Positions 46,734 through 61,762 of a DNA stretch of 64,000 bases are shown in pieces. The position numbers were made by a program, and so were the translations under genes. Below the pieces are notes generated by a model. It was not told the origin of the DNA. It worked only from the letters and a program-made list of their open reading frames with translations, and ran no database searches. Source of the stretch: Tardiphaga sp. P9-11 (GTDB lineage: Bacteria; Pseudomonadota; Alphaproteobacteria; Rhizobiales; Xanthobacteraceae); assembly GCF_008329525.1 (NCBI RefSeq), contig NZ_NPKQ01000001.1, positions 930,001 to 994,000 on the forward strand, written 5' to 3'. Numbering within the stretch: position 1 is the stretch's first letter; every line of letters begins with the position of its first letter.

Positions 46734-47483
46734 CTATCCCGCTGCCGAACCGTTGACGATATCGGCCTGTTCGCCGCGCTCGATCAGCGATTTGACCAGC
46801 GAGGATTTCACGCCGGAGACGTGTTCGCGCATAAGGATTTCGGCACGCCAGGGCTCGCGGGCCATAATGGCCTCGTAGATCCGGTGATGATCGTCGTGGC
46901 GGCGGCGCACGTCGCGATGCTCGAAGGCCACGATGTTGCGGCTCGATGACATCGGCACGTGGTGGCAGATCCGGATCATCTCCGCCAGCATGCGGTTACG
47001 GGCGGCGCCCAGCAGGGTGTCGTGGAAGTCGCCGTTGATGCCGCGATAGATGGTGAGATCGCCTTCCGCGAACTCACCGCGCGCGAGCAGTTTATCGCCG
47101 GCGACAAGGCTTTCCTCGATGATGGCGCGCTCCTCGGCGCTCAGTCCACGTTCGGCGGCGAAGCGTGCGGCCACACCTTCCAGCGATGCGCGAATTTCAT
47201 AAGCATCGACGATAGCGGAGAGTGGGAATTCACGGACGGTGAAGCCGCGATTGGGCGCGTAGTCGAGCAGGCCTTCACCGGCCAGTGCCTGCAGGGCGGC
47301 TCGGACGGGGGTCCGAGAGACCTCCAACGTCTTGCTGAAGCGGACCTCGTTGATCCGTTCGCCTGCGCTGACCGTGCCACCCAGAATGGCGTCGCGGATC
47401 TGGTCCGTCACCGACAGCGACCGGTTGGCGACGCGGCCGGGGCCAGCAGCTTCAGGCAGCGGCGAGAGGGATGAGTCGGGCAT
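46734..47483 (-). CDS. GntR family transcriptional regulator (FCD domain)
   Basis: A 249-residue repressor-type regulator. The N-terminal winged HTH is visible (VTDQIRDAILGGTVSAGERI, EVSRTPVRAALQALAGEGLL), and the rest is an all-helical FCD ligand domain with the expected metal-binding Asp/His residues (for example NGDFHDTLL and HDDHHRIYEAI). Members usually repress a divergent catabolic operon and are released by a pathway metabolite. The start at 47483 follows GGAG. Its divergent neighbour is the first gene of the large hydrolase/ABC operon, so it is the likely local controller. Confidence 0.92.
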   Translation of the reverse strand: MPDSSLSPLPEAAGPGRVANRSLSVTDQIRDAILGGTVSAGERINEVRFSKTLEVSRTPVRAALQALAGEGLLDYAPNRGFTVREFPLSAIVDAYEIRASLEGVAARFAAERGLSAEERAIIEESLVAGDKLLARGEFAEGDLTIYRGINGDFHDTLLGAARNRMLAEMIRICHHVPMSSSRNIVAFEHRDVRRRHDDHHRIYEAIMAREPWRAEILMREHVSGVKSSLVKSLIERGEQADIVNGSAAG

Positions 47484-47500
47484 CGGTGGTGCTCCGCAGC

Positions 47501-47641
47501 AAAGTGAATACAATTAAATCCGAGTGTGGCGGGTCTTTGCTACTCAGCATACCAAAAAACATGATTTAGCTGCATAAATATCGCGCATAAAGGCGAGGCA
47601 GTTCGCGGAAATGATGAGCATCGGAAAAAGTGTATGTAATT
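47501..47641. promoter_or_regulatory. Divergent control region with candidate GntR operators
   Basis: Similar boxes AAAGTGAATACAATT (47501-47515) and AAAGTGTATGTAATT (47627-47641) match in 12 of 15 bases. Between them is a perfect short inverted repeat ATTTA-GCTGCA-TAAAT (47564-47579). The A/T-rich spacing and the location between a GntR gene and its presumed target operon make them candidate operators; no binding is proven. Confidence 0.5.
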
Positions 47642-47710
47642 CTGATTGACTCGTGACCTGAACCCGCAATGATGCGGTCACGTTCACAAGAAGCAAGCGG
47701 TACGCGTCTC

Positions 47711-48952
47711 ATGGCGGCAGGGAAGTCGATCGGCGAAAACGCCATCGAGGAGATCACGGCGGATCGTACCCCGCACTATGAGCCGTTTGGCTGGCATCAC
47801 TGGCCGGAGCATCCCTGGCTTGCCTATCAATTCCGCCGCGGTCTCGGTGAGACCCAGGAGGGCGGCGGTAGCGTGTCCGAGGTGATGTTGGCCGGTTCGC
47901 GGATGATCCCGGGCGACCTCGAAAGCTGGCATAAAGAGTGGATGGTGATCGCGGATGCCAACTGGCAGCGCGGCCTTTCCGAAGAGAAGCTCGGCCATAT
48001 CCGCACGGCGATGAACTGCTTCCTGCGGGCCGCCGACTACTACCGCCAGGCAGAATTCCATCTCGAGCCGACCGACCCGCGGCGGCTGCCGACCTTCGAG
48101 AAGATGGAGGCCTGCTCGCACAAGTTCATTTCCTATCTCAATCCGCCCGGCGAAGTGGTCGAAATCCCTTATGAGCCGGACAAGCCGATTTGCGGCTACT
48201 TCATCCGTGCGCCATTTGCGGGCGACGAGCTGCCGGTACTGATCTGCATGGGCGGTCTCGACTCCATCAAGGACGAGATGTGGTTCATGCAGGCCCATGG
48301 CTGCCTGCAGCGCGGCATCTCGGTGCTGATGGTGGATCTGCCCGGGCAGGGCGGTACCTTGCGCCGCCACGGTCTTGCGACCCGCGCCGATACCGAAGTG
48401 CCGGTCGGCAAATGTATCGATTGGCTGGAAAAGCGCGCCGATGTCGATAGCTCCCGCATCGCGGTCTGCGGTTCCAGCATGGGCGGCTACTACGCCGCGC
48501 GCGCCGGTTGCTACGAGCATCGCCTCGCGGCGGTGATCTCGCACGGTGCCGTCTGGTCCGTCCACGACATGTGGGGTCAGAAGGGCGACGACTTCGGTCT
48601 GGCGATGCATATCCGCTGGGTGTTCGGCGCCAAGACCATGAAGGAAGCCCATGAGCTGATGAAGCCCTTTACGCTGAAGGGCCATCTCGAGCACATGACG
48701 TGTCCCTATCTGGTGCTGCATGGCGGTCACGACGTGCTCACGGTGACCGCAGCACGCTCGACCTATGACCACGCGATTGCCAATGGTGTCGATGCGACAC
48801 TGCGCGTGCTTGAGCCGGATGAGACTGGCGCCGAACATTGTCAGCACGATAATCCGACGATTGGTCAGGAAGTGCTTGCCGACTGGCTCGCCGATAAATT
48901 CAAGATCGATCAGCGCGCGCTGCTGAAGACCTCATTCAATCCGCTGGTGTGA
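47711..48952 (+). CDS. Alpha/beta hydrolase (2,6-dihydroxypseudooxynicotine hydrolase-like)
   Basis: A 413-residue alpha/beta-hydrolase with a helical N-terminal domain (about 1-150, WQRGLSEEKLGHIRTAMNCF, YYRQAEFHLEPTDPRR) and a C-terminal catalytic domain. The nucleophile elbow is CGSSMGGYYA, the acid is likely in LHGGHDVLT, and the His in EHCQHDN. The layout matches the family that includes 2,6-dihydroxypseudooxynicotine hydrolase, which cleaves a C-C bond in nicotine catabolism, and related dienelactone-type hydrolases. It is the first gene of the operon controlled by the divergent GntR gene; the next gene begins 2 bases after its stop. Confidence 0.85.
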   Translation: MAAGKSIGENAIEEITADRTPHYEPFGWHHWPEHPWLAYQFRRGLGETQEGGGSVSEVMLAGSRMIPGDLESWHKEWMVIADANWQRGLSEEKLGHIRTAMNCFLRAADYYRQAEFHLEPTDPRRLPTFEKMEACSHKFISYLNPPGEVVEIPYEPDKPICGYFIRAPFAGDELPVLICMGGLDSIKDEMWFMQAHGCLQRGISVLMVDLPGQGGTLRRHGLATRADTEVPVGKCIDWLEKRADVDSSRIAVCGSSMGGYYAARAGCYEHRLAAVISHGAVWSVHDMWGQKGDDFGLAMHIRWVFGAKTMKEAHELMKPFTLKGHLEHMTCPYLVLHGGHDVLTVTAARSTYDHAIANGVDATLRVLEPDETGAEHCQHDNPTIGQEVLADWLADKFKIDQRALLKTSFNPLV

Positions 48953-48954
48953 TC

Positions 48955-49599
48955 ATGAATCTCGGTGTCAATCCAATCAAGGCGGCCGTCGTTGCGATCG
49001 ACCTGCATCGCGGTCATCTCGACATGTCGGTGGCGACTATGCCGACGACGCCGGATGTCGCGAAACAGGTCATTGCCTCCAACAAGCGGTTGTTTGACTG
49101 GTGCCGTAGTGTCGGCATCCCCGTGATCCATCAGGTCACATCCTATCGCGACGAAGAAGAAATCCGCGCGAACCCGTTCTGGCGGACCCGCGCCGAGGAT
49201 CCAAAAGCGACGCGCAAGAATGTGATGCGGCATAACATCATGGGCGGCCCCGGCTGCACCGTGATGCCGGAGCTGCTGGACCCCAGCGATTTCATCGTCA
49301 ACACGAAGAAGCGCTACGATTGCTTCTTGGGCACCGATCTCGATTTCGTGTTGCGTTCGCACGGCGTCAATACGTTGCTCATCACCGGCGTGAACACCAA
49401 CTCCTGCGTATTGGCGACGACGACGGCTGCCAATGTGCGGGACTATTCGGTGATTGTCGTCGAGGACTGCGTCGACAGCATGGACGGGCCAGAGTTGCAT
49501 GCCGCAGGCCTCGCCTGCATCCGCACCGCCTTCGGTTTCGTGATGGATACCGATGCGGTAATGCAGCTCGATGGCCTCAAGGGCGCACGCGCCGCATGA
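48955..49599 (+). CDS. Isochorismatase-family cysteine hydrolase
   Basis: A 214-residue enzyme of the isochorismatase/nicotinamidase fold that usually hydrolyses amides or N-carbamoyl compounds. The triad is visible: Asp in VVAIDLHRGH, Lys in NTKKRYDCF, and Cys in VNTNSCVLATTTAANVRDY. Relatives include maleamate amidase, N-carbamoylsarcosine amidase and ureidoacrylate amidohydrolase. ATG 48955 is chosen over the upstream GTG 48949. It fits an amide- or ureide-degrading step of the operon. Confidence 0.88.
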   Translation: MNLGVNPIKAAVVAIDLHRGHLDMSVATMPTTPDVAKQVIASNKRLFDWCRSVGIPVIHQVTSYRDEEEIRANPFWRTRAEDPKATRKNVMRHNIMGGPGCTVMPELLDPSDFIVNTKKRYDCFLGTDLDFVLRSHGVNTLLITGVNTNSCVLATTTAANVRDYSVIVVEDCVDSMDGPELHAAGLACIRTAFGFVMDTDAVMQLDGLKGARAA

Positions 49600-49636
49600 T
49601 CTCCCACAATCCCCCACTTTCGAAGGGCATCCAGCC

Positions 49637-50521
49637 ATGACCGGTCCCATGCAGCCGCGCGAGCGTTGCGACTATTCCGCCATCGTCGATCGTCCCAAGC
49701 TGAAACTGCCGGGCAATGCCCGCATGATCGTCTGGACCATCGTCAATCTCGAGGTCTGGGATATTGCCAAGCCGATGGCGCGTCAGGTGCTGCCAGCGCC
49801 AACCGGCATTCCGCTGCTGCCCGATGTCGCCAATTGGGGCTGGCACGAATACGGCATGCGTGTCGGTGTCTGGCGCTTCTTCGATCTCTACAAAAAGCTC
49901 GGCATCAAGCCGACGCTGTCGATCAACGCGCGTGTTTGCGAGGATTATCCGCGCGTGGCCCAGCAGGCGAAGGACGCTGGCTGGGAGTTCATGGGCCATG
50001 CCTATGAGCAGGGGCCCATCCACAAGGAGGCCGACCAGAAAGCGATGATCAACCGCTCGATGGATGTGATCGAGAACTTCACCGGCAAGCGTCCGGTGGG
50101 CTGGCTCGGGCCAGGCTTGACGCAGACGCTGGAGACCCCGGAACTCCTCGCCGAAGCCGGCGTGAAGTATATCGGTGACTGGGTCTATGACGACGAGCCG
50201 ACGGTGATCCGCACCGAAAAGGGGCCGCTCACCACGCTGCCTTACACGGTGGAGATGAACGATATTCCGATGATGATGGTGCAGCATCACGAGAGCACAC
50301 AGCTCCTGAACCGCGCCAAGGACCAGTTCGATCGCCTCTATGCCGAAAGCGCCGAGCGGCCGAAGATCATGTCGATCGCGATCCATCCGTATATTTCGGG
50401 GCAGCCGTTCCGCATCAAATATCTCGAAGCGATCTATGATTATGTGAACCAATTCGAAGGCGTGGTGCATTGGAACGGTGCCCAAATCCTCGACTGGTAC
50501 AATACCCAGGTGACCAAGTGA
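49637..50521 (+). CDS. PuuE-type polysaccharide deacetylase family protein, copy 1
   Basis: A 294-residue NodB-fold hydrolase of the PuuE (allantoinase) group, not a sugar deacetylase proper. The usual TFDD metal motif is replaced by VNLEVWD, while the group's NWGWHEYGMRVGVWR (about residues 65-80) and GWLGPGLTQTLETPELL are present. Relatives open cyclic amides such as allantoin. The gene has a same-length paralogue at 51241-52125 on the other side of the FAH gene. GAAGGG precedes ATG 49637. The stop overlaps the next GTG by 4 bases. Confidence 0.88.
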   Translation: MTGPMQPRERCDYSAIVDRPKLKLPGNARMIVWTIVNLEVWDIAKPMARQVLPAPTGIPLLPDVANWGWHEYGMRVGVWRFFDLYKKLGIKPTLSINARVCEDYPRVAQQAKDAGWEFMGHAYEQGPIHKEADQKAMINRSMDVIENFTGKRPVGWLGPGLTQTLETPELLAEAGVKYIGDWVYDDEPTVIRTEKGPLTTLPYTVEMNDIPMMMVQHHESTQLLNRAKDQFDRLYAESAERPKIMSIAIHPYISGQPFRIKYLEAIYDYVNQFEGVVHWNGAQILDWYNTQVTK

Positions 50522-51225
50522 GCGTGACGTCCCAGCAGATGCTTCCTGCCATCCCCATCACCGGCGTTCCGGTTGTAGGCGGCGGCTTTTTCCCCGTCCG
50601 CCGCGTCTATTGCGTCGGCCGCAACTATCTCGACCACATCCGCGAGATGAAGGAAGCCGACGAGCGCGATCCGCCGTTCTTCTTCCAGAAGCCGCGCGAT
50701 AGCGTGGTGCCAGATGGCGCGCGCGTGCCTTATCCGGCTTTCACCGAAGACTTCCAGTTCGAGGTTGAGCTGGTGCTGGCGATCGGACGCGGCGGCCGCG
50801 ATATCGCGGTGGAGGATGCGCTCGATCATGTCTGGGGCTATGCTGTCGGCATAGACCTGACTCGCCGCGACCGCCAGCGCGATGCCCGCGACATGCGGCT
50901 GCCTTGGGAAATGGGCAAGAGCTTCGATGCGTCGGCGCCATGCGGCGAAATTGCGCCGGCACGTGATGCCCGGCATTTCAACAATTGCGCGATCACCTTG
51001 TCGGTCAACGGCGTCGAGAAGCAGCGCGGCGATATCGGCCAAATGATCTGGAGCGTGCCGGAGATCGTAGCGCAGCTGTCGAAGCAGATGAGGCTTGAGC
51101 CGGGCGATCTCATCTATACGGGCACGCCTGCCGGCGTGGGCCCCGTCGTTCCGGGCGACGTCATCGACGCGCGGATCGAAGGTCTGCCGTCGCTGGGCAT
51201 CACCATTGTCGAGGCGCAAGACTAA
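50518..51225 (+). CDS. Fumarylacetoacetate hydrolase (FAH) family protein
   Basis: A 235-residue FAH-fold enzyme that cleaves C-C bonds next to carbonyls or decarboxylates, using a divalent metal. The metal site is visible as FEVELVLAIG and GYAVGIDLTRRDRQ. RRVYCVGRNYLDHI near the start and YTGTPAGVGPV near the end are typical of the fumarylpyruvate/acylpyruvate hydrolase branch. The start is GTG 50518, overlapping the preceding stop by 4 bases. It sits between the two PuuE-type genes, so it probably acts on the ring-opened product. Confidence 0.9.
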   Translation: MSVTSQQMLPAIPITGVPVVGGGFFPVRRVYCVGRNYLDHIREMKEADERDPPFFFQKPRDSVVPDGARVPYPAFTEDFQFEVELVLAIGRGGRDIAVEDALDHVWGYAVGIDLTRRDRQRDARDMRLPWEMGKSFDASAPCGEIAPARDARHFNNCAITLSVNGVEKQRGDIGQMIWSVPEIVAQLSKQMRLEPGDLIYTGTPAGVGPVVPGDVIDARIEGLPSLGITIVEAQD

Positions 51226-51240
51226 GGATTGGGTCTGATC

Positions 51241-52125
51241 ATGTTGCCGACTGAACGCATTTCCTACTCGCCGATCGACGCTCGCCCGCCGCTGAAGCTG
51301 CCGAATGGCAAGCGCATGGCCGTGTGGATCATCGTCAATGTCGAGGAATGGGACGCCAAGCAGCCGATGCCGCGCACGGTGCTGACGCCGCCGGCCGGCG
51401 GCTCGCCGTCGCCGGATGTTCCGAACTGGGCCTGGCACGAATACGGCAATCGCGTAGGCTTCTGGCGCATGCTGAAAGTGTTCGACGACTACAAGATTCC
51501 GGCGGCGTTGGCGATCAACGGTGCGGCGTTGGCGGCCTATCCGCCTATCGTTGAGGCGGCGAAGACGCGTAACTGGGAGTTCATGGGGCACGGCTTTACC
51601 CAGCGCAACATGCAAAAGGTCGAGAACGAGCGCGAGGATATCCGCAAGACTGCGGACGTGATCGAGAAGGCCACCGGCAAGCGACCGCGAGGCTGGCTCG
51701 GGCCGGGTCTGACCGAGACCTGGGAAACGCCGGATCTGCTGAAACAGGAAGGCTATGACTACGTCGCCGACTGGGTGCTCGACGACCAGCCCGTATGGCT
51801 CAAGACCACGACGACGCCGATCGTGAATGTGCCCTATACGCAGGAGTGTAACGACGTCGCGATGATGCTGATCCAGCATCACAAGGCGTCGGAATATTAC
51901 GACCGGGCAATCGACCAGTTTGAGCAGATTTACGAAGATTCAGAACAATCGGCCCGGGTCATGGCACTGGTTGTGCATCCGTACATCATGGGCGCACCGC
52001 ATCGCCTGAAGCACTTCCGCCGGATCTTCGAGACTATCCAGAAGAAATCCGACGTAGCCTTCATGACCGGCGAACAGATTCTCGATTGGTATCTTTCGGT
52101 CGGGCCGAAGGCGCCAGAAGCATAG
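51241..52125 (+). CDS. PuuE-type polysaccharide deacetylase family protein, copy 2
   Basis: A 294-residue homologue of the gene at 49637, with the same motifs in the same places (VNVEEWD instead of TFDD, NWAWHEYGNRVGFWR, GWLGPGLTETWETPDLL) but clearly diverged in between. The equal length and local position point to an old tandem duplication with the FAH gene in between. They may form a heteromer or act on different intermediates. ATG 51241 is preferred to TTG 51229. Confidence 0.88.
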   Translation: MLPTERISYSPIDARPPLKLPNGKRMAVWIIVNVEEWDAKQPMPRTVLTPPAGGSPSPDVPNWAWHEYGNRVGFWRMLKVFDDYKIPAALAINGAALAAYPPIVEAAKTRNWEFMGHGFTQRNMQKVENEREDIRKTADVIEKATGKRPRGWLGPGLTETWETPDLLKQEGYDYVADWVLDDQPVWLKTTTTPIVNVPYTQECNDVAMMLIQHHKASEYYDRAIDQFEQIYEDSEQSARVMALVVHPYIMGAPHRLKHFRRIFETIQKKSDVAFMTGEQILDWYLSVGPKAPEA

Positions 52126-52144
52126 ATCAGGCAAGCAGCAGGGC

Positions 52145-52996
52145 ATGAGTCTCTTTCAACTCCTCAACGGCCTGACCTTCGCCGCACTGCTGTTCGTGGT
52201 GGCGAGCGGCTTCACGCTGATCTTCGGCCTGCTGCGCATCGTCAATCTCGCGCATGGCGCGCTGTATCTGTTCGGCGGCTATATCGGCTATAGCGTTGCG
52301 GTGAAGACCGGTAGCTTTGTCGTCGGCGGTATCGGCGCCATGGCGGCGATTGCGGCTATCGGCTTCGTGCTCGATCAGGGATTGCTGCGCTTCGTACGCG
52401 GCAACGAGTTGCGGCAGGTGTTGCTGACCCTTGGCGTCGCCTTTTTTCTCAATGACCTCGCGCTGGTGATCTGGGGCGGCGACAGTTTCACGGTGCCGAT
52501 CCCGGAGATGTTGCGCGGCGGCACGCGGGTGTTCGGTACCTTCTATCCGATCTACCGGCTGTTTGTGCTGGGGATGGGCATCTTCGTCTTCATCGGCCTG
52601 TGGGTGCTGCTCAATCATACAAGGCTCGGCGCGTTGATCCGCGCTGGCGTCGACGATGCCGAGATGGTCGAGGCATCCGGCGTCAATATTCGCCGCGTTT
52701 TCCTCTTCACTTTCTTGTTCGGTTCGGCGCTGGCTGGTCTCGGTGGTCTGATGGGAGGCGCGTTCCTGTCGCTCTATCCCTCGGCGGACGCGGAAATCCT
52801 CACCTTCAGTCTCGCCGTTGTCATCATCGGCGGGCGTGGCAGCCTTGTCGGTGTCGGTGTCGGTAGCCTGCTGGTCGGGCTCCTGAATACGCTCGGCCAG
52901 GTGATGTTCCCCGAGCTCGCTTATTTCGTGATCTTCGGCCCGATGGCGGTGTTGCTCGCATTCCGTCCGCTCGGCTTGTTCGGACGTGCCACATGA
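52145..52996 (+). CDS. Branched-chain amino acid-type ABC transporter permease (LivH family)
   Basis: A 283-residue inner-membrane permease with the LivH pattern: LLNGLTFAALLFVVASGFTLIFGLLRIVNLAHGAL at the N terminus, about eight spans, and the cytoplasmic coupling loop near GVDDAEMVEASGVNIRRV. It forms one half of the membrane channel with the LivM-type protein. The start follows the PuuE copy 2 gene by 19 bases; the stop overlaps the next start by 4 bases. Confidence 0.93.
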   Translation: MSLFQLLNGLTFAALLFVVASGFTLIFGLLRIVNLAHGALYLFGGYIGYSVAVKTGSFVVGGIGAMAAIAAIGFVLDQGLLRFVRGNELRQVLLTLGVAFFLNDLALVIWGGDSFTVPIPEMLRGGTRVFGTFYPIYRLFVLGMGIFVFIGLWVLLNHTRLGALIRAGVDDAEMVEASGVNIRRVFLFTFLFGSALAGLGGLMGGAFLSLYPSADAEILTFSLAVVIIGGRGSLVGVGVGSLLVGLLNTLGQVMFPELAYFVIFGPMAVLLAFRPLGLFGRAT

Positions 52997-53955
52997 CGCA
53001 GCCCGTATCCAAAAATTCAATTCTCGCCGGCATGACTGGCCGCGCGCTCGTCATCGCCGGGCTGGTGGTGATCGTCGCGGCCTGCCTTCCCATGGTGCTG
53101 TCGAGCTATCAGGTCGGCCTCGCCACCGAAGTGTTGATCTTCGGTGTCCTCGCCATGTCGATCGATATTCTCGCCGGTTTTGCCGGCCGGACTTCCCTCG
53201 GCCATGGCGCCATCTTCGGTGTCTCGACCTATGTCGTCGTCTACGCGACCGGCCAGGCCGGTCTGTCACTCTGGACGGGCTTCGCGCTCGGTGTGCTGGC
53301 AGCGACCGCGGTGGCCTCGGTATTTGCGCTGCTCGCCGTGCGCACCTCCGGGGTCTACTTCCTGCTGCTGACGCTGGCACTGGGCATGATCGTGTGGGGC
53401 GTCTGCTTGCGTTGGACGCAGGTCACCGGCGGCGAGAATGGTATGCGCGCCGATGTGCGTCCGGCGATCCTGATGAGCCACAGCGCGTTCTATTGGGCGG
53501 TGCTCACCGGCGCCGTCATTGTATCTTTTGCCATGTGGCGTTTTGTTCGTTCGCCCTTCGGTCTGACGTTACGCGGCATCCGCGACAGCGAAAGCCGCAT
53601 GCGCAGTCTCGGCTACAATGTGCCGCTGCATCTGTTCATCGGTTTCACTGTGTCCGGCATCTTCGCGGGCGTTGCTGGTGGGCTCTATGCGATGTTCAAT
53701 AATTTCGTCAGCCCTTCGACCGTCGCGCTCGCGCAATCAGTGGAGGGAGTGTTGATGATGATCGCAGGCGGTGTCGGTACGCTGTTTGGCGCTTTCGTCG
53801 GCGCAGCGGCGATCATTGTGCTGGAGAATATCGTCAGCTCCTACACTGAGCGTTGGTTGATGGTGCTTGGCATCACATTCGTTCTGATCATGATCTTTGC
53901 CCCCGAGGGTATCATAGGCAAGCTGCGCGCGATCACCTCGCGCAAGGCGCGATAA
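52993..53955 (+). CDS. Branched-chain amino acid-type ABC transporter permease (LivM family)
   Basis: A 320-residue permease with the LivM signature AMSIDILAGFAGRTSLGHGAIFGV and the later RDSESRMRSLGYNVPLHLFIGF coupling region. It should form the channel together with the LivH-type protein encoded upstream with a 4-base overlap. The last spans include MMIAGGVGTLFGAFVGAAAI. Confidence 0.93.
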   Translation: MTQPVSKNSILAGMTGRALVIAGLVVIVAACLPMVLSSYQVGLATEVLIFGVLAMSIDILAGFAGRTSLGHGAIFGVSTYVVVYATGQAGLSLWTGFALGVLAATAVASVFALLAVRTSGVYFLLLTLALGMIVWGVCLRWTQVTGGENGMRADVRPAILMSHSAFYWAVLTGAVIVSFAMWRFVRSPFGLTLRGIRDSESRMRSLGYNVPLHLFIGFTVSGIFAGVAGGLYAMFNNFVSPSTVALAQSVEGVLMMIAGGVGTLFGAFVGAAAIIVLENIVSSYTERWLMVLGITFVLIMIFAPEGIIGKLRAITSRKAR

Positions 53956-54000
53956 GTCGGTTTTACGTTTCAATCGGGTTGCTCACGAAAGGACTTTGAG

Positions 54001-55260
54001 ATGGATCGCAGGCAATTTCTCAAGAACACTACGGCAGCAGTCGCTGCCGCGGGCGTCGGCGTCGCTCCGTGGCGCTCGGCTCAGGCTCAGGCCGGCCCGA
54101 TCAAGATCGGTCTGCTGGCGCCGCTGACCGGCGTTGTCGCTTCGGGCGGCAAGGAAATGGTCGAGGGCGTGCAGTTCTATCTCGATCAGGTGAAGAACGA
54201 GATGGGCGGCCGCAAGGTCGAGCTGGTGATCGAGGACGACGCGTCGAATCCCGACACCGCTCTGCAGAAAGCGCGTCGTCTGGTCGAGCAGGGCAATTGC
54301 CACATGCTGATCGGCAACCTGCTCGCCAATACGGGCCTTGCTGTCGCCAACTACGTCAAGGGTACCGGCACGCCCTACTTCATTCCGATTATCGCGGCTG
54401 ACGATCTCACCCAGCGTGCCCGCATCAAGAACGTGATCCGCGTCGCCGGCTATTCTGCGAGCGCCTTCACCCATCCGTTCGGTGACTGGGCCCTGAAGCA
54501 GGGCTACAAGAAGATCGCTACCATCAGCCAGGATTACACCTTCGGCCATGAACAGTGTGGCGGTCTCGCCCAGGTCTTCACCGAAGGCGGCGGGCAGATT
54601 GTGCAGCAGTTCTGGCATCCGCTGAATACTGCCGACTTCAGCCCCTATCTCGGCCAGCTCGCCGACCTCAAGGTCGATGCGATTTTCGCGATGGAGACGG
54701 GCGCTGATTCTACTCGCCTGATCCAGCAATATGCGTCCTTCGGCCTGAAGGCGAAGACGCCGTTGCTGATGGCGATGAACGGCACCGACCAGTCGGTGAT
54801 TCGTACCATGGGCGACGAATGCGAAGGCATCATCGCAGCGGCGCATTTTGCCGAAGGCTCCGACGTCCCGACCACGGCGAAGTTCGAGAAGGATTACGAG
54901 GCGAAGTACGGCAAGATCCCGTCGCTTTACGGCTTCTCGATGTATTCCGGCATGATGTGGATCGACGCTGCATTGAAGAAGATGGGTGGCAAGGTCGAGG
55001 ATCGTGAGGTGTTTATCGACACGGTGCTCAAGACCGAGCTGGACAATTCGCCGCTTGGCAAGACCGTGAAGTTCGACGACTACGGCAATCCGATCTACGA
55101 CGTCTACATTCGCAAGGTTGTCAAGCGCGCCGATGGCAAATACTGGAACGTGCCGATCGAGACCTATCCGAATGTCTCGCAGTTCTGGAAATACGATCCG
55201 GCGACCTACCTGAAGCAGCCGGCTTACTCGCGAACCTTCCAGGGCATCAAGAAGGCCTGA
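54001..55260 (+). CDS. ABC transporter substrate-binding protein with Tat-type signal
   Basis: A 419-residue periplasmic binding protein of the LivK family. The leader (DRRQFLKNTTAAVAAAGVGV, cleavage near AQAQA) has the twin-arginine form, unusual for this family but common in actinobacterial and alphaproteobacterial versions. The mature protein starts GPIKIGLLAPLTGVVASGG. It delivers the substrate of the operon to the permeases encoded just upstream. A hairpin and then the ATPase genes follow, so the whole importer is encoded together. Confidence 0.93.
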   Translation: MDRRQFLKNTTAAVAAAGVGVAPWRSAQAQAGPIKIGLLAPLTGVVASGGKEMVEGVQFYLDQVKNEMGGRKVELVIEDDASNPDTALQKARRLVEQGNCHMLIGNLLANTGLAVANYVKGTGTPYFIPIIAADDLTQRARIKNVIRVAGYSASAFTHPFGDWALKQGYKKIATISQDYTFGHEQCGGLAQVFTEGGGQIVQQFWHPLNTADFSPYLGQLADLKVDAIFAMETGADSTRLIQQYASFGLKAKTPLLMAMNGTDQSVIRTMGDECEGIIAAAHFAEGSDVPTTAKFEKDYEAKYGKIPSLYGFSMYSGMMWIDAALKKMGGKVEDREVFIDTVLKTELDNSPLGKTVKFDDYGNPIYDVYIRKVVKRADGKYWNVPIETYPNVSQFWKYDPATYLKQPAYSRTFQGIKKA

Positions 55261-55277
55261 TCTCCAACGCTGACATC

Positions 55278-55300
55278 GGAGCGCGGCCATGCCGCGCTCC
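55278..55300 (+). other. Intercistronic hairpin after the substrate-binding protein gene
   Basis: GGAGCGCGGC and GCCGCGCTCC (55278-55287, 55291-55300) form a perfect 10-bp stem with a 3-base CAT loop and no T-run. At this position such hairpins usually stabilise the upstream mRNA and raise the binding protein above the ATPases. Confidence 0.6.
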
Positions 55301-55318
55301 GCCTAACAGGAAATTTTT

Positions 55319-56074
55319 GTGTCCGAACCGATCCTGACGCTGAGCGATGTAACGGTAGCTTTCGACGCCTTGAAGGCGGTCGACGGCGTCAGCCTGACCG
55401 TGCCGCGGGGCCAGCGCCGCGCCATCATCGGCCCCAATGGCGCCGGCAAGACCACGTTGTTCAATGCCATCGCCGGCGCGCATCCGCCGACATCGGGCAA
55501 GATCAGGTTCAATGGGCATGATGTGTCCAGACTGCCGCCACACCGGCGTGCGCAGCTCGGTATCTCGCGCACTTTCCAGATCACCAACCTGTTCCCCACG
55601 CTGAGCGTGCAGGACAACATGATGCTGGCGCTGCGTGGCCTGAAGCCGAAGAAGTTTTCGCTGTTCGGCTCGCCCGATCCGGACGACAACGAGGCCGTGC
55701 GCATCGCGGCAGCTCTGAACGCCGCACGGATCGCTGGGCGGGCCGAGATCATCGTCAAGGAAATGTCCTATGGCGAGCAGCGGCAGCTTGAAATTGCGAT
55801 TGCGCTGGTGACGACGCCGACCATGTTGCTGCTGGATGAGCCCGCGGCCGGCCTGTCGCCGTCGGAGCGCTCGATGATTGCCGAGGTGATCCGCTCGCTC
55901 GACCCGGCAATTACCGTGATCCTGATCGAACACGACATGGATCTGGCGCTCGGTCTGGTTGACTACGTCACCTGCATGTTTGAGGGCCGTGTGCTGGTGG
56001 AGGAGCCGCCGGAAGGCATTCGCCGCAACGCCAAGGTCCGGGAAGTCTATCTCGGGAAGCCGCGCCATGCTTGA
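55319..56074 (+). CDS. ABC transporter ATP-binding protein (LivG family)
   Basis: A 251-residue ATPase of the LivG type. Walker A is IGPNGAGKTTLF, the signature helix reads SYGEQRQLEIA, and Walker B is MLLLDEPAAGLSPSE. The C-terminal region ends with the family's EVYLG segment. It energises uptake together with the LivF-type ATPase, whose start overlaps its end by 8 bases. GTG 55319 is the start, with AGGAAAT in front. Confidence 0.94.
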   Translation: MSEPILTLSDVTVAFDALKAVDGVSLTVPRGQRRAIIGPNGAGKTTLFNAIAGAHPPTSGKIRFNGHDVSRLPPHRRAQLGISRTFQITNLFPTLSVQDNMMLALRGLKPKKFSLFGSPDPDDNEAVRIAAALNAARIAGRAEIIVKEMSYGEQRQLEIAIALVTTPTMLLLDEPAAGLSPSERSMIAEVIRSLDPAITVILIEHDMDLALGLVDYVTCMFEGRVLVEEPPEGIRRNAKVREVYLGKPRHA

Positions 56075-56771
56075 GGTCAAGGATCTGCACAGCGGTTACG
56101 GCGACGCGGTCGTGGTGCGCGGCGCGTCGCTGGAGATTCGTCCCGGCGAGATCGTGGCGTTGCTCGGCCGCAACGGGATGGGCAAGACCACCTTCATTCG
56201 CTCCATCATGGGCCTAACGCCGCCGCAGGCGCGCTCGGGCACAATCACCTGGCGTGGCGACAGTCTTGTCGGTCTGCGCCCGCACGATATTGCCAACCAC
56301 AAGATCGCGATCGTGCCGCAGGGCCGCCGTCTGTTCCCGTCACTGACCGTCACCGAGCATCTGACCATGTTGAAGAACGCGCGCGCCAAGAACGGTTGGA
56401 CGCTCGATCGTGTATTCGGCATTTTTCCACGCCTCGCCGAACGCCGCCATCACCGTGGCGGGCAGCTGTCGGGCGGTGAGCGCGGCATGCTGGCGGTCGG
56501 CCGTGCACTGATGATCGATCCGGAGCTGATCCTGATGGACGAGCCTTCGGAAGGCCTCGCGCCGGTGATGGTGCAGCATCTCGAAAGCATCATTCTCGAT
56601 CTCAAGAAGGAAGGGCTGTCGATTCTGCTGGTCGAGCAGAATCTCTACAGCGCCCTGGCCGTCGCGGACCGCGTCTACATTATGGAGACCGGACAGATCG
56701 TGCATCATGGCACGTCACAAGAACTGAGCCAGCAGACCGACGTGTTGTTCCAGCGCCTCGGCGTGCATTGA
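56067..56771 (+). CDS. ABC transporter ATP-binding protein (LivF family)
   Basis: A 234-residue ATPase of the LivF type: Walker A GRNGMGKTTFI, signature LSGGERGMLAVGRAL, Walker B LILMDEPSEGLAP. ATG 56067, giving MLEVKDLHSGYG, is the normal family start; upstream codons in frame belong to the LivG gene in another frame. Confidence 0.94.
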   Translation: MLEVKDLHSGYGDAVVVRGASLEIRPGEIVALLGRNGMGKTTFIRSIMGLTPPQARSGTITWRGDSLVGLRPHDIANHKIAIVPQGRRLFPSLTVTEHLTMLKNARAKNGWTLDRVFGIFPRLAERRHHRGGQLSGGERGMLAVGRALMIDPELILMDEPSEGLAPVMVQHLESIILDLKKEGLSILLVEQNLYSALAVADRVYIMETGQIVHHGTSQELSQQTDVLFQRLGVH

Positions 56772-56778
56772 GGTGATC

Positions 56779-56973
56779 ATGAGAGAAGATCTGTTGCGTC
56801 AATTGGCTGCAGAATTGAACAAGGCGCCCGCTGCCGCCGACCGCGCGCCGCGCGTGGCGGCATTAGTTGCGGAGAACAACACGCGCATCGCCACTGAAGC
56901 GGTGACCAACATGTCGTTCGATTCCTCGCCTTACGCCTATCAGGCCTGGCTCGCCGCCGTGGACAAAAACTGA
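56779..56973 (+). CDS. AtzG-like small subunit (DUF4089 type) of an amidase
   Basis: A 64-residue protein without catalytic residues: an N-terminal helix (REDLLRQLAAELNKAP) and a second helical part ending YAYQAWLAAVDKN. Position and size correspond to AtzG (DUF4089), the small partner that stabilises the amidase AtzE in cyanuric acid catabolism. The sequence similarity I can see is moderate, so the call rests mainly on context: it ends with a 1-base overlap (TGATG) into an amidase gene. GAGGTGAT precedes ATG 56779. Confidence 0.65.
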   Translation: MREDLLRQLAAELNKAPAAADRAPRVAALVAENNTRIATEAVTNMSFDSSPYAYQAWLAAVDKN

Positions 56974-58358
56974 TGCGGAGCGCCATTGCCGGTCTCGATC
57001 TTTGCATGCTCGCCGACGCCATCGCCACGGGCGACATCTCATCCGTCGAGGCCACGACCGTTGCATTGGAACGCCTCGATCTGATCGGCCGCAAACTCAA
57101 TGCAGTCGTGCGGCTCGATGACGAGCGCGCGCTGAAGGCGGCCCAGGCCGCGGACAAGCTGCGCGGGTCGGGTGCATCGCTGCCGCGGCTGCACGGCGTG
57201 CCGCTCGCACATAAGGACTTGTTCTATCGCAAGGGCGATCTCTCCGGCGGTGGCTCCAAGATCCGTGCGGACTTTCGCGCCGATGTCACTGCGACGGTGA
57301 TCGCCCGGCTCGATGCAGCCGGCGCTCTGGATCTCGGCCGGCTGCAACTTGCCGAATTCGCCATGAGCCCGACTGGCTACAACGAGTCGCTGGGCCACGC
57401 GCGCAATCCATGGAATCCGGATTATGTGCCGGGCGGCTCGTCGTCCGGGTCGGGCGCCGCTGTCGCTGCGCGCCTCGTCGCCGGCTCGCTCGGTACTGAC
57501 ACTGGCGGCTCGCTGCGACATCCTGGAGCGATGTGCGGATTGATCGGGTTGAAACCCACTTGGGGACTGGTGCCGACCGATGGTGTAATGCCGCTATCTG
57601 CCTCACTGGATTGCACGGGACCTCTGGCCCGTACCGCGCGGGACGTCGCGCGATTGCTCTCGGTGATCGCGGATCGCGACTATGAAGCGACGCTCGATAC
57701 GGGTGTGACCGGGATGCGCATCGCAATTCCCGGTGGGTATTACCGCGAACTCGTGCATCCGGATGTCGTGACTGCGCTGGACGAAGCCGTGAAGGCGTTG
57801 CGGTCGCTCGGCGTCACCATCGTCGAGACCTCGCCGCCGGACATGGTCTTGATCAACGCGCTGATGCAAGTCGTCATGAGCGTCGAGGCCGCGACGATCC
57901 ATCGCCGCTGGCTGATCGAGCGACCGCAGGATTATGCCGATCAGGTGCGCTCGCGCATCGAGCCCGGTTTGTTTTATCCCGCAACGCGTTATGTCGAGGC
58001 GCTGTCCCTGCGTGCGCAGATCACCCAGCAATGGATCGCATCTTGCATAGGCACGGCGGATCTCGCGTTGCTGCCGGCGATCTCGATCCCGGTACCGACC
58101 ATTGCCGCGACGACCGAAGGTGACCCAGCCGATGTCGCCCGCGTCATCGGCCAGCTCACCCATTGCACCCGCGGCGTCAACTATCTCGGTCTACCAGCTG
58201 CGTCGGTTCCGTGCGGCTTCGATGCGGCAGGTCTGCCCATCGCGTTCCAACTGGTTGGTCGCCCCTTTGCCGAAGTCGACATCCTCCGTGTCGCGCATGC
58301 CTATCAGGGCACGACAGACTGGCATCTGCGCGTGCCCGCCAGTGCCGAACTGAACTAA
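56973..58358 (+). CDS. Amidase signature family hydrolase (AtzE-like)
   Basis: A 461-residue amidase. The Ser-cisSer-Lys triad is complete: Lys in PLAHKDLFY (near residue 80), cis-Ser in PGGSSSGSGAAVAA and nucleophile Ser in GTDTGGSLRHPG. Such enzymes hydrolyse amides, carbamates or biuret-type compounds. The 64-residue AtzG-like gene directly upstream, overlapping by 1 base, supports an AtzE/AtzG-like complex. Its place at the end of an importer operon suggests hydrolysis of the imported compound or a later amide intermediate. Confidence 0.9.
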   Translation: MRSAIAGLDLCMLADAIATGDISSVEATTVALERLDLIGRKLNAVVRLDDERALKAAQAADKLRGSGASLPRLHGVPLAHKDLFYRKGDLSGGGSKIRADFRADVTATVIARLDAAGALDLGRLQLAEFAMSPTGYNESLGHARNPWNPDYVPGGSSSGSGAAVAARLVAGSLGTDTGGSLRHPGAMCGLIGLKPTWGLVPTDGVMPLSASLDCTGPLARTARDVARLLSVIADRDYEATLDTGVTGMRIAIPGGYYRELVHPDVVTALDEAVKALRSLGVTIVETSPPDMVLINALMQVVMSVEAATIHRRWLIERPQDYADQVRSRIEPGLFYPATRYVEALSLRAQITQQWIASCIGTADLALLPAISIPVPTIAATTEGDPADVARVIGQLTHCTRGVNYLGLPAASVPCGFDAAGLPIAFQLVGRPFAEVDILRVAHAYQGTTDWHLRVPASAELN

Positions 58359-58370
58359 GAAGAGATCTCC

Positions 58371-59360
58371 ATGCCCATCATCGATATGCATACCCATGCC
58401 CTCAGCAAGCGCGTCGAGCCGCTGGTGGCCGGGCATTACGATCCAATGGATAACCCCTATCGGCGTGACATGTCGCCTGCGAGCCGTGAGACCGATGCGG
58501 AGCAAGGCAAACTGCTGCCGGGCCTGATGCTCGTTCTCGCCAAGCGCCGCGAGATGATGGCGAAGATGGGCGTCGACTTCCAGGTCATCGCACCAGCGCC
58601 TGCACAGCAGAACTATTGGGCCGATGAAGATCTGCAATGTGCATTATCGCGCGTGCAGAACGAGGATATCGCCGCACTCGTGGCGCAGGACCCGGCGCAT
58701 TTCGCCGGCATGGGCACACTGCCGATGCGGTTTCCGGCGCGCGCGGCGGAAGAAGCGGCATACGCGGTTGAGCAGCTTGGTCTCCGCGGCTTCCAGATCG
58801 ACACCCGCATTGAGAATCTTGAATTGTCCCATGCGTCTTTCGATTCGCTCTACGCCCGGCTCGCCAGATTGCGGGTGCCGCTGTTCGTGCATCCGCTCGG
58901 CTTCTCCCATGGCCAGCGACTCGGCGATTTCTTCATGGTCAACAGCGTCGGCCAGCCCATCGAAGAAACCATTGCGATCTCCCACTTTATCATGGGGGGA
59001 ATTCTCGACCGGCATCCCGATCTCGATGTGGTGATTGCCCATGGCGGCGGCTTCTATCCGTTTTACGCGGCCCGTCTGGATCACGCCTGGAAGGTGCGCC
59101 CGGAAGTGCGGCGGCTGACGGCGGATGCGCCATCGACCTATCTGAAACGGCTGTGGTTCGATACCTGCGTGTTCTCGTCCGATCTGATCGACAGCCTCGT
59201 CAAAACCGTGGGCGTTGACCGCGTCATGATGGGCTCTGACTATCCGTTCGACATGGGGGACCCCGATCCGGTGGGGCTGGTCAACAAGGCTAAGCTATCG
59301 GAAACTGACCGTCAGAAAGTCCTGTTCGGCAATGCGAGCCGGCTGTTCAAGATCGGATAA
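58371..59360 (+). CDS. Amidohydrolase family protein (ACMSD-like)
   Basis: A 329-residue TIM-barrel metal enzyme of the amidohydrolase_2 family, related to aminocarboxymuconate-semialdehyde decarboxylase. The metal ligands are visible: HxH in IDMHTHA at residues 5-8, His in LFVHPLG, His in IAHGGGFYPFY and Asp in MGSDYPFDMG. ACMSD relatives decarboxylate or hydrolyse ring-cleavage products. It lies 12 bases after the amidase gene. Confidence 0.9.
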   Translation: MPIIDMHTHALSKRVEPLVAGHYDPMDNPYRRDMSPASRETDAEQGKLLPGLMLVLAKRREMMAKMGVDFQVIAPAPAQQNYWADEDLQCALSRVQNEDIAALVAQDPAHFAGMGTLPMRFPARAAEEAAYAVEQLGLRGFQIDTRIENLELSHASFDSLYARLARLRVPLFVHPLGFSHGQRLGDFFMVNSVGQPIEETIAISHFIMGGILDRHPDLDVVIAHGGGFYPFYAARLDHAWKVRPEVRRLTADAPSTYLKRLWFDTCVFSSDLIDSLVKTVGVDRVMMGSDYPFDMGDPDPVGLVNKAKLSETDRQKVLFGNASRLFKIG

Positions 59361-59408
59361 GCTCCTGCCTCGTTGTGGCAAGGTGCGGCACAAGAGGCAA
59401 GACCCGCG

Positions 59409-60047
59409 ATGACGATCCACTTTGATTTCGCCAAGCTTAGCGCGCCGGAGCGCTACAAGCTGCTTTGTGGTCTCGTTGTCCCGCGACCGATTGCGTTGAT
59501 TACAACCATTTCCGAGGCTGGTGTGGTCAATGCCGCGCCGTTTTCGTTCTTCAATGTGTTCTCGGAGAAGCCGCCGCTGGTGGTAGTTGGCCTACAGGCC
59601 AGGCCCGACCTGTCGGTCAAGGACACGACCCGCAATGTTCGCGCCAATGGGTTGTTTGTCATCAACATGGTGGATGAGGCCCTCGCCAACGATATGGTCG
59701 ATTGTTCGATCAGCTTTCCATCCGACATCGGCGAACTGGACGCCCTGCAGCTTCCAATGACGGCTGGCATTAATGTGCCGGTGCCGCATTTGGCGAAGGC
59801 ACCTGCGGCACTGGAATGCCGGAAAGTGACAATGATGAACTTTGGCGCAGAACGCGACTTACTGGTCGGAGAGGTCTTGGGCATTCAGGTTCGCGATGGT
59901 GTTGTCGACCCCGTCACCTTGCGTACGGATTATGATCATTATCTTCCGGTCGGGCGCGTCGCGGGAACCATGTATGCGCGGATGCAGGATCGTTTCGAAA
60001 TCAAGCCCGACAGTTTTGAGACTTGGCAACTCCGTAGCCCCCGTTGA
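59409..60047 (+). CDS. Flavin reductase-like FMN-binding protein
   Basis: A 212-residue flavin reductase-like split-barrel protein: PRPIALITTISEAGVVNAAPFSFFNVFSEKPP near residues 25-55 is the FMN-binding stretch, and ARPDLSVKDT(T)RN and FVINMVDE follow as usual. Members supply reduced flavin to monooxygenases or act directly as oxidoreductases; no monooxygenase is seen in the operon. GAGGCAAG precedes ATG 59409. It is the last gene of the run. Confidence 0.87.
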   Translation: MTIHFDFAKLSAPERYKLLCGLVVPRPIALITTISEAGVVNAAPFSFFNVFSEKPPLVVVGLQARPDLSVKDTTRNVRANGLFVINMVDEALANDMVDCSISFPSDIGELDALQLPMTAGINVPVPHLAKAPAALECRKVTMMNFGAERDLLVGEVLGIQVRDGVVDPVTLRTDYDHYLPVGRVAGTMYARMQDRFEIKPDSFETWQLRSPR

Positions 60048-60162
60048 GGGAGGTTTTGTCCGGGAGTGCGTTGGAATGCCGGTGGTAGTTCTCTGCGCGT
60101 TCGATTAACCGTCACAGGTGAGAAATCGCCGCTCCTGCGGTTGCATGGGATATGACTGCTGG

Positions 60163-60513
60163 ATGTATCGGAAAACCATCATTGTTATTGCGTGGACTAC
60201 ACTTGCATTGATTGCTTTTGCGACTCTGTCACCGATCGGGCTGCGGCCGCATTTTGCCGGCGTCAGCCTGGAGCGTTTCGGTGCATTTGCACTCGTGGGC
60301 CTTTTGTTCGGCCTCGCTTATCCGCGTCATCTCTGGCTTGTTCTGACGCTCGTTGGGGGAGCGGCAGTCGGACTCGAGGTGCTGCAACATTTGACGCCGG
60401 ACCGGCACGGCGAGGTGCGGGATGCGCTGGTCAAACTTGCAGGCGGCGTCACGGGTATCGGGATATCGCTCGCGCTTCATCAGACCTTAAAGCGATTTAT
60501 CACCTTAAGTTGA
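60163..60513 (+). CDS. VanZ-like membrane protein
   Basis: A 116-residue protein with three or four hydrophobic spans (TIIVIAWTTLALIAFATLSPI, FALVGLLFGLAYP, LWLVLTLVGGAAVGLEVLQHL). The QHLTPDRHGEVRDALVKLAGG stretch is typical of VanZ-like proteins, where the Arg/Asp residues follow the third span. The family function is not settled. ATG 60163 is preferred because the first span begins there; upstream in-frame starts add Cys-rich residues without similarity. Confidence 0.8.
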   Translation: MYRKTIIVIAWTTLALIAFATLSPIGLRPHFAGVSLERFGAFALVGLLFGLAYPRHLWLVLTLVGGAAVGLEVLQHLTPDRHGEVRDALVKLAGGVTGIGISLALHQTLKRFITLS

Positions 60514-60898: not shown

Positions 60899-61762
60899 AT
60901 GCATCGGCGATACCAGCATTCCAGTATCCCAACCGAAATCATGCGGTCGGTTGTCGGTATCTCCGAAGCCGGCAGCATCACCAAGGCCGCAAAGCTGCTC
61001 GGTCTGAGCCAACCTGCCATCAGCTCGCAGATCAAGCGGATTGAGCACGCGGTCGGCGGCAGTATCTTCCAGAAGTCTGCCAACGGCTCATCGACGACAG
61101 AGCTCGGAAAGCTCGTTCTGATCCAGGCCAAGAAGATTCTGGAGGCGAACGACCAGTTGCTCTTGCTGCGTGGGGCTTCGCCCGAAGATCAGACTATTCG
61201 GCTTGGTCTGGCCAACTTCTATGCGCAACGCGCAATGGAAGGGATGAGCAAGGCGGCGATGAGCAATGTCTGCATCTATTCAGATAATTCGTCCGAGATC
61301 GCAAAAAGCATGCTCGACGGCTACGTCGATATCGGCGTGTTTCTCAGCATTTCCGAGGTGCCGGTGGATGCGACCACCGATGTCGTCGCGCAACGCGACG
61401 ACGAGCTGAGTTGGGTCCGCTCCAGGGATTTTACGTTAAGTCCTGGCGCGCCCATTCCGTTGCTGACCTGGCCGGGGCACATCGTGCATAATGTCATGAT
61501 CCAGGCGCTTGAGCGCAAAGGCATGATCTATCGTATCGCATTCTCCAGCCCAGACCATCATGCACGGATCGAAGCTGCGAGGGCAGGCATCGGTTTAACC
61601 TTGCTGCCAACGGCTCTGATCCCTGCGACGCTCCTGGCTGCCAATGAGTATTATCTTCCGAAGCTGGCGATACCCAAACTCGTGCTATGCGCGCGCGAGG
61701 ATATTCGCAAGAAACACAGTATTCTAATAGAGGAACTGCACGTTAAATTCTTCGGTATATAG
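60899..61762 (+). CDS. LysR family transcriptional regulator
   Basis: A 287-residue regulator. The N-terminal winged HTH reads MRSVVGISEAGSITKAAKLL, GLSQPAISSQIKRIE, the classical LysR pattern. The rest is a periplasmic-binding-like effector domain (LGLANFYAQRAMEGMSK, GYVDIGVFLSI). The target gene is unknown. AAGGA precedes ATG 60899 by about nine bases. It shares its strand with the upstream VanZ gene and the downstream tad genes, without obvious linkage. Confidence 0.9.
   Translation: MHRRYQHSSIPTEIMRSVVGISEAGSITKAAKLLGLSQPAISSQIKRIEHAVGGSIFQKSANGSSTTELGKLVLIQAKKILEANDQLLLLRGASPEDQTIRLGLANFYAQRAMEGMSKAAMSNVCIYSDNSSEIAKSMLDGYVDIGVFLSISEVPVDATTDVVAQRDDELSWVRSRDFTLSPGAPIPLLTWPGHIVHNVMIQALERKGMIYRIAFSSPDHHARIEAARAGIGLTLLPTALIPATLLAANEYYLPKLAIPKLVLCAREDIRKKHSILIEELHVKFFGI

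Follow-up and report, generated by a model that had tools for sequence, protein, structure and literature searches.

What compound might be taken up and broken down by a compact run of hydrolase and importer genes in Tardiphaga sp. P9-11? We analysed a 64,000-nucleotide stretch of its 6.16-Mb genome (assembly GCF_008329525.1, contig NZ_NPKQ01000001.1, positions 930,001 to 994,000; hereafter the window, whose numbering is used throughout). In it, a divergent FCD/GntR regulator gene (46734-47483, minus strand) faces 14 consecutive plus-strand genes (47711-60047). We propose, at a probability of roughly 60%, that this is an inducible operon for breaking down a small ring compound that contains nitrogen and is taken up by the cell (a cyclic amide or imide, a ureide or a hydroxylated N-heterocycle). 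The starting point is what the analysis shows, namely gene content, conservation, box sequences in the divergent promoter, a predicted fold and the paralogy of two enzymes. The points that favour the proposal are synteny in 28 of 130 compared loci, the conserved boxes, the predicted fold of the enzyme PuuE1, precedents from HxnM and the kpi locus, and the contexts of related genes at one further locus (L191), on plasmids and in a second operon of the genus. In our judgement, little has been mapped of how soil bacteria break down cyclic imides and N-heterocycles by hydrolysis, and the substrate of a conserved unit of this kind could be found with a single binding protein, a single regulator and a panel of growth tests.

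A regulator facing a tightly packed run of hydrolase and importer genes

The run starts with an alpha/beta hydrolase gene, followed by genes for an isochorismatase-type hydrolase, a PuuE-type enzyme (PuuE1), an FAH-family protein, a second PuuE-type enzyme (PuuE2), LivH, LivM, a substrate-binding protein, LivG, LivF, a small AtzG-like protein, an amidase, an ACMSD-like protein and a flavin-reductase-like protein. Neighbouring genes overlap by 4, 4, 4, 8 and 1 bp at five of the 13 junctions, while the other eight have gaps of 7-58 bp and none is wider, which agrees with an earlier note on this DNA that described a packed run with overlaps of 1-8 bases. Ten proteins were queried against Pfam, and the regulator and eight enzymes matched the expected families (FCD and GntR, FrsA-like/alpha-beta hydrolase, Isochorismatase, Polysacc_deac_1 for both PuuE-type proteins, FAA_hydrolase, Amidase, Amidohydro_2 and Flavin_Reduct). 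The names of the five Liv genes come from their translations: LivH-like and LivM-like permeases (52145-52996 and 52993-53955), the binding protein (54001-55260), and LivG-like and LivF-like ATPases (55319-56074 and 56067-56771). Of these, the binding protein alone was searched, against solved structures. The genes named in that note are thus confirmed at their places, by open reading frames (ORFs) and Pfam for the regulator and eight enzymes and by translation for the Liv genes.

The expected catalytic motifs were found in the five enzymes checked. Revised starts were assigned to the alpha/beta hydrolase (47711), PuuE1 (49637), the FAH protein (50518), PuuE2 (51241) and the flavin-reductase-like protein (59409). 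For the alpha/beta hydrolase, 47711 was preferred to 47669 because the latter falls within the -10 of a promoter-like consensus match, TTGACT-16-AATGAT (47646-47673, plus strand). For the regulator, the ATG at 47483 is likelier than the TTG at 47513 because a conserved box, described below, occupies 47502-47515. Between 46400 and 61000, 13 terminator-like matches on both strands barely exceed the shuffled mean of 10.2 (standard deviation 3.2).

The operon recurs in other genera around a smaller core

We compared 130 loci, mostly picked for holding PuuE1 or the alpha/beta hydrolase, after removing six second copies (L068, L069, L070, L072, L085 and L088). Genes were counted by tblastn; ORF calls miss genes in some loci (e.g. 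L089, L065 and L142). PuuE1 orthologues, defined by at least 58% identity, occur in 55 of the 130 loci, and 28 of these also carry at least two Liv genes and were taken as operon loci. Eleven operon loci come from the genus of the window (L030-L040), six of them with copies titled Tardiphaga or, in one case, Bradyrhizobium sp. NFR13, and eight from further genera within its family (L042, L055, L056, L184 and L187-L190). The rest are four Bradyrhizobium loci (L071 and L073-L075), two from Acetobacteraceae/Rhodospirillales assemblies (L079 and L081), and one each from Hyphomicrobiales (L083), Burkholderiales (L089) and Oxalobacteraceae (L093) assemblies. Gene order is stable inside the genus, where PuuE1 is present in 13 of 18 genomes (one partial) and the alpha/beta hydrolase likewise in 13, and PuuE1 is 98% identical to its best named match, in Tardiphaga robiniae. 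The same order recurs in other genera, and the operon is therefore not unique to the strain, a check that the earlier note had called for.

LivH and LivM are present in all 28 operon loci, the binding protein and LivF in 27 and LivG in 25. PuuE2 follows with 25, the regulator with 24, the alpha/beta hydrolase with 23, the FAH protein with 21 and the isochorismatase-type hydrolase with 20, down to the amidase in 18, the ACMSD-like protein in 13, the AtzG-like protein in 12 and the flavin-reductase-like protein in 6. The core is thus the regulator, the alpha/beta hydrolase, the isochorismatase-type hydrolase, PuuE1, the FAH protein, PuuE2 and the Liv importer, and the flavin-reductase-like and ACMSD-like genes are add-ons. 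Because gene content varies in this way, several genes are lineage-specific, and the earlier description of a complete pathway was an overstatement. The operon is not strain-specific, but its core is smaller than the first list, and its spread is patchy. At one Bradyrhizobium locus (L073:9065-9352), the alpha/beta hydrolase is apparently reduced to a 95-aa fragment, and no match over half its length was found there.

The uneven counts, in which PuuE1 is universal by selection, also suit an alternative that is unlikely yet deserves to be weighed: a modular hydrolase toolkit with the importer, PuuE1 and alpha/beta hydrolase as its core, the other enzymes being swapped for different, related substrates. 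It is supported by L074, which carries just the regulator, alpha/beta hydrolase, PuuE1 and Liv genes, and by a cluster of HpcH/HpaI aldolases (named by Pfam on one member) that joins in L047, L055, L056, L083, L187 and L190; an HpcH/HpaI aldolase is an enzyme type able to yield pyruvate. However, the stable order within the genus speaks against such swapping, and steps absent from a locus may be encoded elsewhere in the genome.

PuuE1 and PuuE2 are set apart from the predicted allantoinase of the genome

PuuE1 (49637-50521) and PuuE2 (51241-52125), about 46% identical to each other, are NodB-fold proteins predicted to be ring-opening amidohydrolases. By NCBIfam, both are of the PuuE type (model TIGR03212), and their scores of 112.4 and 133.2 bits lie below its cut-off of 424.6 bits. 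The PuuE1 model (predicted local distance difference test, pLDDT, 91.8) has as its best solved match the PuuE allantoinase 3cl6 (Z 34.9, root-mean-square deviation 2.0, 283 residues), followed by two PuuE-like entries (Z 34.7 each), HP0310 (31.3) and 3rxz (31.0). With PuuE as the best match over nearly the whole chain, PuuE1 is predicted to have the PuuE-type NodB fold. Glu39, His121, Gln125, His218 and His250 are invariant across 36 aligned sequences, including six PuuE2 orthologues. Four residues past the motif-2 His, the PuuE1 group has Gln where HP0310 reads His, with a one-residue gap at this place in the HMMER alignment; we take this His of HP0310 to be a metal ligand. PuuE1 and PuuE2 probably share the common fold, the Glu and His motifs and, presumably, C-N ring opening with Pseudomonas PuuE and the branch of HxnM and cyclic imide hydrolase. 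PuuE acts on allantoin and, unlike HP0310, binds no metal (PMC3084791).

These resemblances raise the possibility of an allantoin or purine ureide operon, in which PuuE1 and PuuE2 would be allantoinases and the isochorismatase-type and AtzE-like enzymes would cut ureido groups. PuuE is indeed the best fold match of PuuE1, biuret amidohydrolase is the best, below-cut-off NCBIfam model of the isochorismatase-type hydrolase, and PuuE1 relatives of 52-56% identity lie near a gene for an allophanate-hydrolase C-terminal domain and partly also near a hydantoin-racemase-family gene. However, the genome holds six PuuE-like genes, one of which passes the PuuE cut-off at 529.5 bits (C16:1.102 Mb) and stands beside an OHCU decarboxylase gene, as expected of an allantoin locus. 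Two others come close to the cut-off while staying under it (G000:C16:870136-871020, 401 bits; G000:C4:110670-111548, 388 bits), and another scores 97 bits (G000:C30:51433-52119). In a 40-row tree that includes three of these four other genes, the C30 gene being left out, PuuE1, PuuE2 and their relatives are split with 100/100 support, across a long branch, from the above-cut-off PuuE and the two other paralogues; two of the three included paralogues sit on long branches themselves, and their own placement is unsure. With an above-cut-off PuuE beside OHCU decarboxylase and this split, PuuE1 and PuuE2 are unlikely to be the allantoinase of the genome. We therefore rejected the allantoin reading, which we consider very improbable, and allantoin, one of the substrates proposed earlier, is an unlikely one. 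PuuE1 and PuuE2 differ from PuuE in scoring below the cut-off, in forming a separate clade and in occurring as two copies flanking an FAH gene in a genome that keeps an above-cut-off PuuE elsewhere. We argue against reading them as allantoinases or, as discussed below, as sugar deacetylases.

The other enzymes suggest hydrolysis of C-N and probably C-C bonds

The alpha/beta hydrolase (47711-48952) is FrsA-like and has Ser-Asp-His motifs; its closest solved chain, a distant one, is 2,6-dihydroxy-pseudo-oxynicotine hydrolase (2jbw, E 3.5e-24). Separately, members of the same hydrolase family appear in a different system at L192-L196, where pairs of alpha/beta hydrolase paralogues (62-67%) flank an NMT1-type importer together with a cupin-HTH (helix-turn-helix) regulator. 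The isochorismatase-type cysteine hydrolase (48949-49599) has the Asp, Lys and Cys motifs and scores 74.3 bits with the biuret amidohydrolase model BiuH (cut-off 370) and 66.8 bits with RutB (cut-off 377.95), below both. The FAH protein (50518-51225) is closest to 6j5y (E 8.9e-71) and 4maq (E 2.4e-68) and also matches FAHD1 (E 3.8e-46), its nearest structures comprising an FAA-hydrolase-family entry, a putative fumarylpyruvate hydrolase and acylpyruvases and its best NCBIfam models being below cut-off. It carries the ExE/D motifs, and by similarity and motifs it is predicted to act as an acylpyruvase or fumarylpyruvate hydrolase. The binding protein matches 4zpj (E 1.2e-52) and 4ey3 (E 3.5e-46), the latter of which we assume to bind aromatic acids.

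The amidase-signature enzyme (56973-58358), AtzE/GatA-like, has the Ser and Lys motifs and a Pfam Amidase score of 309 bits, and reaches 260.1 bits with the AtzE model TIGR02715, under its cut-off of 425.75. The small ORF directly ahead of it (56779-56973, 64 aa) is a putative AtzG-like partner and holds this position in relatives as well: nearly all of the loci listed have a small ORF running 1-4 bp into the start of the amidase gene (as called, 28 bp in L039), and one is seen in divergent loci too, beyond the tblastn count of 12 of 28. It had no Pfam match at E<=10 and no Foldseek match to PDB structures, and its model is helical (pLDDT 79.4, predicted template modelling score 0.38).

The last two genes are lineage-specific. 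The ACMSD-like protein (58371-59360), an amidohydrolase-2 protein and predicted decarboxylase, matches ACMSD chains at a best E of 2e-48 and has the metal-ligand motifs, with no NCBIfam match, and the flavin-reductase-like protein (59409-60047) is nearest to the 2-nitrobenzoate nitroreductase 4z85 (E 1.9e-39). Side by side, they recall an aromatic route of the 2-nitrobenzoate or 3-hydroxyanthranilate type. However, no ring-cleavage dioxygenase was found among the Pfam matches of the operon, and the flavin-reductase-like gene is present in only 6 of the 28 operon loci, which is why we rejected this route as the main account of the operon; its chances appear slim.

Operator-like boxes are conserved in the divergent promoter

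In a 34-row alignment of the divergent intergenic region, which contains some second copies from one genome, two AAGTGTATACACTT-type boxes are kept while the DNA between them diverges. Box 1, AAGTGAATACAATT (47502-47515), lies 18 bp ahead of the regulator ATG, and box 2, AAGTGTATGTAATT (47628-47641), ends 4 bp ahead of the -35-like TTGACT of the promoter-like element. When this intergenic stretch of the window was shuffled by mononucleotides, its best box match was equalled in 0 of 200 shuffles and its second-best in 1 of 200. Promoter-like consensus matches in the region (4) show no excess over shuffles (mean 5.0). The two conserved operator-like boxes are new here, and their conservation between genera is the main strength of the operator case. 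At the sequence level, an FCD and GntR protein combined with a palindromic box at each of the two divergent promoters fits what would be expected of local autoregulation and control over a single operon, from which we infer an operator function.

Elsewhere in the genome (L214:3758-8761, around G000:C12:631901) lies another divergent GntR gene, with about 33% identity and a box AAGTGCATGCAATT; by eye, it faces apparent ABC (ATP-binding cassette) importer genes and a gene for a 479-aa enzyme. Two AAGTGCATGCAATT-like boxes about 100 bp apart also occur in four genomes without PuuE1 (G006, G008, G012 and G013) and in one with it (G015).

Related genes occur in other catabolic settings

Neighbourhood association alone is suggestive only. 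At L191, a PuuE-like gene (37% to PuuE2), an FmdA-type formamidase, a cupin and an NMT1 importer stand ahead of the alpha/beta hydrolase (81%) and FAH (72%) genes. PuuE1 matched 169 plasmid records; among the 40 records listed, its relatives, where named, carry the label 'polysaccharide deacetylase' (family protein) or 'hypothetical protein'. Neighbourhoods were read in three of these records. The Variovorax relative (46%) adjoins FAH, PuuE, MFS and amidohydrolase genes; the Azospirillum relative (38%) lies with an amidase, a CoA transferase, an enoyl-CoA hydratase, an ABC importer, PuuE and SDR genes; and next to the Mesorhizobium relative (H1, 55%) are genes for asparaginase, tartrate dehydrogenase and SDR. 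Other contexts of PuuE1 relatives include an HMGL-like gene and a TPP enzyme. Three genomes of the genus carry a second PuuE-Liv operon (L064, L066 and L067) with a 50% PuuE1 relative, a luciferase-like monooxygenase, molybdenum-hydroxylase subunits, dehydrogenases and an ACMSD-like gene, the families being taken from one cluster member each.

A proposed route of import, ring opening and cleavage

Searches of open-access PubMed Central (PMC) papers showed no pathway with a matching gene set, and within that scope the earlier statement that no described pathway has this exact set is upheld. Three systems come near in part. In the hxn nicotinate pathway of Aspergillus nidulans, PuuE-like HxnM is proposed to open the cyclic imide 3-hydroxypiperidine-2,6-dione, with an amide hydrolase acting next; HxnM is 64.2% identical to a cyclic imide hydrolase homologue of Pseudomonas putida, and its structure is close to that of HP0310 (PMC9304392). 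The hxn system differs in being fungal, with oxidative upper steps, and the portion seen names no FAH, isochorismatase or Liv importer for it (PMC9304392). The kpi locus for 4-hydroxypyridine in Arthrobacter sp. IN13 resembles the Tardiphaga operon in its alpha/beta hydrolase, its FAH protein, its FadR-type regulator and its course from an N-heterocycle to an acylpyruvate, namely formylpyruvate, for which an FAH step is proposed and unconfirmed (PMC7356986). By contrast, kpi has a flavin monooxygenase, an amidohydrolase-family ring-cleaving dioxygenase and a permease (PMC7356986), where PuuE-type enzymes and an ABC importer are found in the Tardiphaga operon, whose Pfam matches include neither an FAD monooxygenase nor an amidohydrolase-1 protein. 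The atzDGEHF operon for cyanuric acid shares a small partner gene directly ahead of an AtzE-like amidase gene (PMC6219798), whereas the Tardiphaga operon has one amidase gene, below the AtzE cut-off, and neither cyanuric acid hydrolase nor DUF3225 (AtzH) among its Pfam matches. HqiA, an isochorismatase-type lactonase, was dropped as a lead, its fosmid neighbours, as far as the available source describes them, being unlike this operon.

The nearest structures of the FAH protein, the alpha/beta hydrolase and the binding protein, together with the kpi precedent, led us to propose import, ring opening, nitrogen release and carbon cleavage; the substrate class, the order of the steps and their products are what we infer. 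The FCD/GntR protein would occupy both palindromic boxes, the one at its own promoter and the one next to the -35 of the operon promoter, until the substrate or an intermediate causes its release. The Liv-type ABC importer would, judging from its family, take up the compound, and PuuE1 and PuuE2 would open the ring by hydrolysis of C-N bonds, probably with no metal involved. Nitrogen may then be freed from an open-chain amide or ureide by the isochorismatase-type hydrolase and the AtzG/AtzE-like amidase, and pyruvate may arise when the FAH protein cuts a product of the acylpyruvate type. Another cut, at a C-C, ester or amide bond, may be made by the dihydroxy-pseudo-oxynicotine-hydrolase-like enzyme. 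The route could be extended by the ACMSD-like and flavin-reductase-like proteins in Tardiphaga and its near relatives. The earlier reading, breakdown of an imported cyclic amide, imide or other N-heterocycle, thus survives as a regulated uptake-plus-hydrolase operon acting at C-N and probably C-C bonds, and loses its claim to completeness. More tentatively, the pathway might be an undescribed, essentially hydrolytic one common to alpha- and betaproteobacteria, with the two PuuE-type enzymes opening the ring of a cyclic imide, a lactam or a hydroxylated N-heterocycle after its import and the carbon leaving as an acylpyruvate that the FAH protein cuts; PuuE1 and PuuE2 might then represent a functional class of ring-opening NodB-fold hydrolases that is new.

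Several points weigh against an inducible operon for a ring compound. None of the ten operon proteins tested passes an NCBIfam cut-off, so that no protein among them can be equated with a named, known enzyme, and the substrate does not follow from the names borrowed for them (PuuE, AtzE, biuret hydrolase, RutB). HxnM and the P. putida cyclic imide hydrolase were likened to PuuE1 by description. The way in which the loci were picked makes the counts no random sample, the content of the operon loci is variable towards the amidase, ACMSD-like, AtzG-like and flavin-reductase-like genes, and matches are rare: PuuE1 was found in 8 of 398 phylum genomes at E<=1e-80, its own counted, and the isochorismatase-type hydrolase in 1 of 385 class genomes at E<=1e-60, its own only. 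The Mesorhizobium context and several others of PuuE1 relatives do not point to this chemistry. For the boxes, the match is not significant in L055, L083 and L187 and only marginal in L056, a TGTATACA core being nonetheless present. The pattern AAGTGWATRYAMTT has exact matches in the genome at the two box sites only, which is by construction, as it was derived from these same boxes. At one mismatch it has 4 matches in the whole genome versus 9 for a backward control, and at two mismatches 3 in the window, equalled by 9 of 100 shuffles. With N at its sixth base, one additional exact site appears, ahead of a second GntR gene and operon, and no further regulon members were found by the one-mismatch genome scan or with a looser exact pattern over the 18 genus genomes.

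Least credible of all is that the NodB proteins are true polysaccharide or peptidoglycan deacetylases in an operon for cell-wall or chitin fragments, as their Pfam family Polysacc_deac_1 might suggest, since the PuuE fold match stands far above the chitin, xylan and peptidoglycan deacetylases among the matches listed (Z 17-21) and Gln replaces the presumed metal-ligand His of HP0310 in 36 of 36 aligned sequences, across the alignment gap noted above.

Genes downstream of the operon

Downstream of the operon lie genes for a VanZ-like small protein (60145-60513) and a LysR-like regulator (60941-61762), both named by eye. Homologues of the VanZ-like protein occur in 17 of the 18 genus genomes, including four of the five without PuuE1.

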